Below, one piece after another: positions 31,717-34,237 of a stretch of DNA of 51,489 nt. The notes under the pieces were generated by a model. The model had not been told where the DNA came from and made no database searches. It saw only the letters and a program-made list of their open reading frames with translations. The position numbers and the translations under genes are program-made. How positions within the stretch are numbered: the stretch's first letter is position 1; each line of letters opens with the position of its first letter. This stretch comes from Candidatus Kurthia equi (GTDB lineage: Bacteria > Bacillota > Bacilli > Bacillales_A > Planococcaceae), in NCBI GenBank assembly GCA_018065935.1, contig JAGHSJ010000209.1:1-51489 (forward strand), in the 5' to 3' direction.

Positions 31717-32034
31717 ATGACAACCGAACAAGCCATTTTAAATTTACTAGGAATTGCAGCAAGTGCAAGACAAGTAGTAACAGGTGAAGAACAAGTAGTG
31801 AAAGAAGTCCGAGGACAGTCTGCTAAACTTGTGATCTTATCCACAGATGCTTCAAAAAACACGCAAAAAAAATTGCGTGATAAATGTAACTCTTTTCATG
31901 TTGAACTTCGTGAGTTTAGTACACGCGAAGCACTAGGAACAGCTACAGGTAGAGAAACACGTGTATCCCTTGCCATTATGGACAGAGGATTTGCGAAAAA
32001 ATTTATCGAGCTGTTTGATCAACTGGAAGCATAA
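31717..32034 (+). CDS. ylxQ: L7Ae family protein YlxQ (RplGA-like)
   Basis: LLGIAASARQVVTGEEQVVKEVR; between ylxR and infB. Confidence 0.92.
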   Translation: MTTEQAILNLLGIAASARQVVTGEEQVVKEVRGQSAKLVILSTDASKNTQKKLRDKCNSFHVELREFSTREALGTATGRETRVSLAIMDRGFAKKFIELFDQLEA

Positions 32035-32097
32035 GAAAACTTTATGCCAGAAAATGACGCTTTATATTTTGTAGGTTGTAAGATCCAAGTTAGAAGG

Positions 32098-32187
32098 TCC
32101 TTATTTCACTAAGTCATCAAGGAGAGCCGAAGGGACAGCCAGGAACTCGTCCCGCTATTAGTTAGATGACTCTAAAAAGCTAATAGC
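32098..32187 (+). promoter_or_regulatory. Structured leader with crossing helices upstream of infB
   Basis: agtcatc(32112-18)/gatgact(32165-71) crosses gctattagtt(32154-63)/agctaatagc(32178-87); gggac/gtccc between; tcctt/aagga. Confidence 0.6.
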
Positions 32188-32221
32188 AAAACTCAAAATT
32201 TTATCTGAATAAGGATGTACT

Positions 32222-34237
32222 ATGACAAATAACTCATCTAATAATAAAAATACAAACAATTCTTCAAGCCGTCCAGCTTCTGGTGGTAACAATGCAGGTC
32301 GCAGTGGCCAAGGTAACACTGGTGGACAAAATCGTCCAGGTCAAGGACCTAACCGTGGCGGACAAAACCGTCCAGGCCAAGGCGGACGCCCACAACAACG
32401 TCGTCGCCCAGGTATCAATGGAGGACAACGTCGTAAAAACCGTCCAGCTCCACAACCTGTAGCTCCAAAAGAATTACCAGAAAAAATCACTTTCTATGAG
32501 TCATTAACAGTTGGCGAATTAGCGAAGAAATTAGGTCGCGAACCTTCTGAAATCATCAAGAAATTATTCCTTCTTGGTGTAATGGCTACAATCAACAACG
32601 AATTAGACAAAGATGCAATTGAGCTTATTTGTTCTGAATACGGTGTTGAAGTAGAAGAAGAAATCCGTATCGATAAAACGGATTTAGAAACATACTTCGA
32701 AGAAGAAGAAACTGAAGAAAACGAAGCTGATACAGTTGAACGTCCTCCAGTTGTTACAATCATGGGTCACGTCGATCACGGTAAAACAACTTTACTTGAC
32801 TCAATTCGTAACTCTAAAGTAACTGCAGGCGAAGCAGGCGGTATCACACAACATATCGGTGCTTACCAAGTAGAAGTTAAAGGTAAAAAAATCACGTTCC
32901 TAGATACTCCAGGACACGCAGCTTTCACAACAATGCGTGCACGTGGTGCGAAAATTACCGATTTAACAATCCTAGTTGTAGCAGCTGATGATGGTGTAAT
33001 GCCACAAACTGTTGAAGCAATTAACCATGCGAAAGCAGCAGAGGTTCCAATTATTATCGCTGTAAACAAAATGGATAAACCATCAGCTAACCCTGATCGT
33101 GTAATGCAAGAATTAATGGAGCACGGTTTAGTTTCTGAAGCTTGGGGTGGGGATACAATCTTCGTACCAATTTCAGCACTTAAAGGTGACGGGATCGACC
33201 AATTATTAGAAATGATTTTATTAGTTTCTGAAGTTGGCGAACTGAAAGCAAACCCTAACCGCAATGCATTAGGTACTGTAATCGAAGCACAACTTGATAA
33301 AGGTCGTGGAGCGGTTGCTACACTTCTAGTTCAAAACGGTACATTAAAAGTTGGAGATCCAATCGTAGTTGGTCACGCACACGGTCGTGTACGTGCAATG
33401 GTAAGTGATATTGGTCGTCGCGTGAAAGAGGCCGGTCCATCAACTCCTGTTGAAATCACTGGTTTAAGCGTAGTACCACAAGCTGGTGATCGTTTCGTAG
33501 TATTCGATGACGAAAAATCAGCTCGTCAAGTAGCAGAAGCTCGTGAAATGACAGCTATCCAAGCTAACCGTGGCGAAGGTTCAATCGTTACACTTGATAA
33601 CTTATTCGAGCAAATGAAACAAGGCGATATGAAAGAATTAAACTTAATCGTTAAAGCTGATGTACAAGGTACAGTTGAAGCAATGGCTTCTTCATTAATG
33701 AAAATTGAAGTTGAAGGTGTTAACGTTAAAATCATCCATACGGGTGCTGGCGCAATCACTGAATCTGATATTTCATTAGCAGCTGCTTCAAATGCAATCG
33801 TTATCGGTTTCAACGTACGTCCAGATACAAATGCTAAACGTGCTGCTGAAGCTGAAGGCGTAGATATTCGTCTTCACAAAATCATCTATAAAGTAATCGA
33901 AGAAATCGAGTCTGCTATGAAAGGTATGCTTGATCCAGAATTCGAAGAAAAAATCATCGGTAATGCGGAAGTACGTGAAACATTCAAAGTTTCTAAAGTT
34001 GGTACAATCGCAGGTGGTTATGTTACTGAAGGTAAGTTAGTTCGTGATGCAGGAGTTCGCGTAATCCGTCAAGGAATCGTAATCTTCGAAGGCGAATTAT
34101 CTTCACTTAAACGTTTCAAAGATGATGCGAAAGAAGTTGCTAAAGGATACGAATGTGGTTTCACAATCGATAAATTTAATGACATCAAAGTTGATGACGT
34201 AATTGAAGCGTTCGTAATGCAAGAAATCAAACGTTAA
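32222..34237 (+). CDS. infB: Translation initiation factor IF-2, lacking the usual first N-terminal IF2_N subdomain
   Basis: [15 protein letters not shown], second IF2_N domain ([28 protein letters not shown]) present; in-frame stop at 32210 blocks extension. Confidence 0.97.

Follow-up and report, generated by a model that had tools for sequence, protein, structure and literature searches.

The stretch of DNA analysed here (the window, 51,489 nt of Candidatus Kurthia equi) raises the question of why infB, which encodes IF2, stands well apart from the gene before it. The open reading frames give the order nusA, ylxR, ylxQ, a gap, infB, and then an rbfA/truB/ribF-like run. The ylxQ frame (31717 to 32034, on the plus strand like every feature below) encodes an L7Ae-family RNA-binding protein (Pfam PF01248, E 2.6e-14; its best NCBIfam match is the YlxQ family, slightly below the cutoff), and between its stop and the infB ATG lie the 187 nt, 32035 to 32221, that an initial annotation had reported and set against the close spacing of the two genes in B. 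subtilis. That annotation, made from the letters alone, proposed a structured RNA leader with crossing helices. We compared the locus in eight genomes of Kurthia, a member of the Caryophanaceae: that of the window, K. zopfii, K. gibsonii, K. sibirica, K. senegalensis, K. massiliensis, K. huakuii and Kurthia sp. 3B1D, which form two clades of four species each, the window genome and K. sibirica belonging to clade 1. A leader of 154-199 nt occupies the same place in all eight, and the infB start invariably lies 69-75 nt 3' of one unchanging 20-mer, while the 5' part of the leader (32035 to 32096) is variable and conserved in neither sequence nor length in the alignment of the eight. The window assembly (G000) is in 447 contigs with an estimated contamination of 7.4%; its infB contig is consistent with the other Kurthia genomes. 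From the comparison set out below we hold with near certainty that the leader is a real structured RNA.

Three helices carry the structure. Helix A pairs AGTCATC (32112 to 32118, with a conserved 6-bp part, GTCATC, at 32113 to 32118) with GATGACT (32165 to 32171); P2 pairs GGGAC (32132 to 32136) with GTCCC (32149 to 32153); and helix B pairs GCTATTAGTT (32154 to 32163) with AGCTAATAGC (32178 to 32187), the 3' arm of A falling within the loop of hairpin B. All three had been claimed at these places, with A, B, A' and B' following one another in that order, and both claims proved correct. The full succession A, P2, B, A', L3, B' is that of an H-type pseudoknot with the P2 hairpin carried in loop 1. 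By inspection of the Kurthia leaders, L2 measures 1-3 nt and L3, mostly A-rich, about 6-10 nt across a 6-bp helix, a geometry that we would regard as sterically reasonable for an H-type fold. The invariant 20-mer GGACAGCCAGGAACTCGTCC (32133 to 32152) comprises P2 and its 12-nt loop, which is purine-rich (CCAGGAA) and within which RNAfold adds an A-U and a G-C pair, leaving one C bulged.

The structure was scored on the alignment of the eight species as 21 pairs, 6 in A, 5 in P2 and 10 in B. Across species 98.2% of the pair cells are paired and 9 of the 21 pairs have changed on both sides, giving a covariation score of 0.405 against a shuffled mean of 0.154 and 0.04-0.19 for versions in which the partners were slid. 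Helix A is paired in all eight species (100% of cells) and contributes a single covarying pair, a U-A to C-G double change that turns GUCAUC/GAUGAC into GCCAUC/GAUGGC. Helix B is the most variable, with 96.2% of its cells paired and both-side changes in seven of its ten pairs: it reads GCTATTAG/CTAATAGC in one clade, and ACGATGAAAG, ACGATGTCAGG, ACGATAAATG and ACGATAAACG, each with a matching partner, in the other. P2 is likewise paired in all eight, its closing pair being A-U, G-C or G-U. Since several of the compensatory changes fall within one clade, they cannot all be the product of one event. RNAalifold, unprompted, recovered P2 and B. A comparison of the two clades gives 100% identity for the 20-mer and about 58% for the remainder of the element. 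The comparison of orthologous leaders, which had been named in advance as the result that could overturn the proposal, thus yielded compensatory changes in both crossing helices, and these, with feasible loops, are what define an H-type pseudoknot. The annotation had allowed for either a pseudoknot or mutually exclusive helices; the pseudoknot stands, but exclusivity is less likely because both helices are kept paired in every one of the eight species.

The window sequence taken by itself is unremarkable. Crossing helices of at least 7 and at least 9 bp turned up in 233 of 400 dinucleotide shuffles of the leader, and the MFE of a 226-nt stretch is ordinary (z -0.59). As we read it, the proof of the crossing helices is their conservation across species, not the folding of a single sequence. 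A fourth helix that had been claimed, TCCTT with AAGGA, does exist in the window (32098 to 32102 with 32119 to 32123) but is unconserved, the relatives having AATGAG or ATTTA in place of AAGGAG. The AAGGA at 32119 to 32123 is also a second Shine-Dalgarno-like site in the window leader, absent from the other species.

The TCCTT strand has a better partner, in the Shine-Dalgarno region of infB. There GTCCTTATTT (32097 to 32106) can pair over 10 bp with GAATAAGGAT (32207 to 32216), which includes the infB Shine-Dalgarno sequence AAGGA (32211 to 32215), in an outer stem that we call P0 and assessed by shuffling clade by clade and from MFE folds of the clade-1 leaders. When the 5' strand was shuffled 2000 times, a pairing as good arose 5-8 times in three of the four clade-1 species and 74 times in K. 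sibirica. Just 4-5 bp, not significant, can be drawn in clade 2; at one P0 pair the clades differ by a double change. Masking of the Shine-Dalgarno sequence by P0 is therefore a likely feature of the window's clade, a statement that does not extend to the genus as a whole.

A covariance model found exactly one copy of the element per genome in all eight Kurthia (E below 1e-22) and in all four Rummeliibacillus genomes (E 7e-8 to 2e-5), always 5' of the same infB start; elsewhere among 151 genomes of 19 genera it gave one weak match (E 0.08), in one genome of another genus. A scan for the core in one genome per GTDB species returned Kurthia, Rummeliibacillus and unrelated sites, the last mostly in coding sequence of GC-rich genomes with no IF2 motif nearby. 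A repeat or mobile element was considered and rejected, the element being single-copy in the genome and absent from plasmid, phage and viral collections. Rfam (release 15, gathering cutoff) gave no match for the whole window, two other Kurthia loci and one Rummeliibacillus locus, the best sub-threshold match being a chance snoRNA on the opposite strand. An Rfam match was the other outcome that had been set beforehand as a refutation, and the statement that the leader belongs to no known class still holds; the stretch singled out as resembling a riboswitch core does include the invariant core, though it matches no Rfam family. The open-access literature yielded no description of an infB leader from Kurthia or another Firmicute. 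The leader is a new and narrow RNA family, with an unusual origin beside the loss of a domain from an essential factor.

That origin is read from the relatives. In other genera of the family infB starts a few bases after ylxQ and encodes an N1 domain (MTKLRVHEYAK...). An N1 query matched infB in Rummeliibacillus and in genera g6 and g13; the same query found nothing credible in the eight Kurthia genomes. The window infB (32222 to 34237) encodes a short IF2 with a single IF2_N domain (Pfam PF04760, once, residues 94-143), which is the copy preceding the G domain. The Kurthia gene begins at the position of the relatives' candidate internal, short-isoform start, about 97 codons into their infB. 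At that site Rummeliibacillus reads in frame ...CAA GGA AGT ACT ATG AAT AAT AAT..., K. huakuii and sp. 3B1D read TAA GGA AGT ACT ATG, and the window reads TAA GGA TGT ACT ATG, so that a stop codon (TAA, 32210 to 32212) just 5' of the Kurthia infB ATG stands where Rummeliibacillus has CAA. The Kurthia start region accordingly has the place expected of a short-IF2 initiation region, at the homologous second start and with its own Shine-Dalgarno sequence, GGA AGT ACT ATG being common to the two genera. The contrast with B. subtilis is therefore real as to the gap but is due to loss of N1-coding sequence in Kurthia and not to an insertion; judged from the sequences, the gap is a replacement of the 5' coding part of infB.

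The core hairpin itself appears to have come from that coding part. In all four Rummeliibacillus genomes infB contains the 20-mer, with no more than one mismatch, as in-frame codons for GQPGTRP, 58-70 nt 5' of the second start. Counting only aligned residues that the four species conserve, the codon is identical at 5 of 6 positions in the core and at 147 of 369 in the remainder of the stretch (Fisher p 0.04), an excess that is marginal and weak on its own. Taken with the identity of the 20-mer, to within one mismatch, to its non-coding Kurthia counterpart, the excess speaks for an RNA role that the hairpin may have had already inside the gene; the GQxGxRP peptide could itself be under selection in Rummeliibacillus. 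Genus g6 keeps GGAC...GUCC with a changed loop (AAGGGA) and a CGCUAG/CUAGCG stem nearby, at a weak model score (E 0.02-0.04). A full pseudoknot was sought in the coding sequence of Rummeliibacillus and g6 and not found, P2 and at best a weak B-like stem being drawable; the complete pseudoknot was seen only in Kurthia. The initial annotation had missed that the leader occupies what was once infB coding sequence, that IF2 has lost N1 here, and that the sister genus Rummeliibacillus keeps the core hairpin as codons.

Some further variation at the locus may be recorded here. Genus g16 of the same family (L076 1000-1250 and L077 1050-1250) also lacks the IF2 N1 domain, its infB starting at MTQN, where g13, g14, g18 and g19 have their candidate internal start, which suggests that N1 was lost in g16 independently; its spacer before infB, of about 85 nt, holds only a small hairpin (CATACATCTTTAACGTATG/CATACGTCTTTACACGTATG). 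The length of the IF2 linker varies widely across the family, and in K. zopfii (L046) the linker carries a long SRPSNGGGNA-type repeat array, and its open frame runs to 773 aa, where other Kurthia have about 650-674 aa. The four clade-2 leaders (L012-L015) share an identical or nearly identical ATGAGATACTGGTGTTGACCACTT that lies between the ylxQ stop and helix A. Read as codons it would give MRYWC and a stop, and a small TGGT/ACCA hairpin can be drawn in it; an upstream peptide or a structure is possible.

Two lines of published work bear on what the leader may do. In-frame start codons give rise to two or three IF2 isoforms in E. coli, other Enterobacteriaceae and B. subtilis, and a single IF2N domain was found in 57 of 191 IF2 sequences (PMC1780047); a 2002 paper, as it is cited there, concerns elements of the enterobacterial infB mRNA that serve intracistronic initiation. 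In E. coli, IF2 binds NusA through its N1 domain (PMC12297416). Because of the isoform-start and N1-NusA literature, we read the leader as the control region of the short-IF2 start, set free by the loss of N1. As a working account we consider it reasonably probable that the leader acts in cis, as a structured part of the mRNA that governs where translation of infB is concerned its initiation, and hence that of the short, N1-less IF2. The annotation's choice of translational over transcriptional control as the likeliest level is supported, a search for a terminator on the infB strand of the leader having found none; a search for a promoter within the leader found none that was convincing. Structure, conservation, single location, loss of N1 and homology to coding sequence are shown directly; translational control, with any sign or effector assigned to it, is our inference, and the leader RNA probably tunes the amount of IF2.

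The proposed course of events would run as follows. Ancestrally, as in the relatives, infB with its N1 part would have lain directly behind ylxQ, with the second start some 97 codons in and, 58-70 nt 5' of that start, the conserved core hairpin (GGAC-AGCCAGGAACUC-GUCC). The lineage of Kurthia would have lost the N1-coding part and gained a stop just 5' of the second start, leaving the latter as the sole start of infB, while the hairpin was presumably retained and built into the H-type pseudoknot, A/A' crossing B/B' with P2 in loop 1. In one clade the outer stem P0 would then pair the Shine-Dalgarno region with the sequence directly 5' of the pseudoknot. By keeping the two arms of P0 near each other, the pseudoknot would link access to the Shine-Dalgarno sequence with binding at the invariant P2 loop. 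A factor gripping the P2 loop and pseudoknot could shift that sequence between masked and free, candidates being a translation factor such as IF2 itself, a ribosomal protein, the 30S subunit or a small ligand. Only tentatively do we go further and suggest a new class of cis-regulatory pseudoknot, born in IF2-linker coding sequence where it governed internal initiation, later, after the loss of N1, a stand-alone leader, and exerting feedback on the amount of IF2 by way of a specific effector.

A protein-binding autoregulatory leader, bound for example by IF2, by the neighbouring K-turn protein YlxQ or by a ribosomal protein through rRNA mimicry, would be one specific form of the preferred explanation, and is a possibility that we put no higher than plausible. 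The operon consists of translation factors, and pseudoknots are classic folds of ribosomal-protein operators. Yet P2 shows on inspection neither a K-turn bulge nor tandem G-A pairs, and the core and its loop match Kurthia 16S and 23S rRNA, by primary sequence, at chance level and no better than shuffles, for which reason rRNA mimicry or antisense was set aside. YlxQ and YbxF bind K-turns according to a reference in PMC4316175, but YlxQ does not bind K-loops, to go by a title in the same literature. A constitutive initiation element, that is, an unregulated 30S standby site or spacer in which the P2 loop displays AGGA, or else an RNA-stability element, is a somewhat weaker candidate. The purine-rich CCAGGAA of the P2 loop, the AAGGGA loop of g6 at the same place and the closeness of the element to the infB start in all species would suit it, but a mere spacer needs neither an invariant 20-nt core nor a compensated pseudoknot, and the masking of the Shine-Dalgarno sequence by P0 in clade 1 fits it poorly.

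A small-molecule riboswitch, with the pseudoknot and its invariant 12-nt loop as aptamer and P0 as expression platform, we consider unlikely. Compact pseudoknot, invariant core and clade-1 masking do resemble the translational pseudoknot riboswitches; riboswitches, however, usually recur 5' of several genes in one pathway, and what is found here is one copy per genome, always at infB and in one genus, with a core hairpin that lies inside coding sequence in the sister genus and no Rfam match. Most improbable are the explanations that dispense with RNA, in which the core is a DNA dyad (AGGAC-N12-GTCCT) for a transcription factor or a residual peptide-coding segment. The core is indeed an inverted repeat, and the GQPGTRP frame happens to be open around it in all eight species, but the G-U pairs and the compensatory changes in the flanking crossing helices indicate RNA, and that frame has no start codon in most species and ends at different stops. 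A short upstream peptide in the GQPGTRP frame was rejected on the same grounds, start codons and stops being unconserved.

Decades of work on the long and short forms of IF2, an essential factor, have left us with no clear account of why there are two or of what controls initiation at the short start. As a natural N1 knockout, Kurthia has only the short start, set behind a covarying pseudoknot, and its leader offers a direct and testable system for the control of that start; with the sister genus keeping the core hairpin in coding sequence, it also presents a case of coding sequence becoming regulatory RNA. Among known systems, internal initiation in enterobacterial infB (IF2 beta) is alike in gene, in the short-IF2 start and in having an element 5' of that start, whereas the Kurthia element is a non-coding leader with a pseudoknot before the sole infB start. 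The E. coli S15, S4 alpha-operon and L20 leaders and the Firmicute L20 and S15 leaders share with it a pseudoknotted mRNA before a translation gene, with translational control to be expected, and differ from it in that the Kurthia leader has no Rfam match and no detected rRNA mimicry. Frameshift-stimulating pseudoknots have the same H-type topology, but the Kurthia element is non-coding and is followed by an in-frame stop just 5' of the infB ATG. The SAM-II and preQ1 riboswitches likewise combine an H-type fold with a possible strand for masking the Shine-Dalgarno sequence; unlike them, the Kurthia leader bears in loop 1 a P2 hairpin with an invariant loop, and it is confined to a single gene in a single genus.
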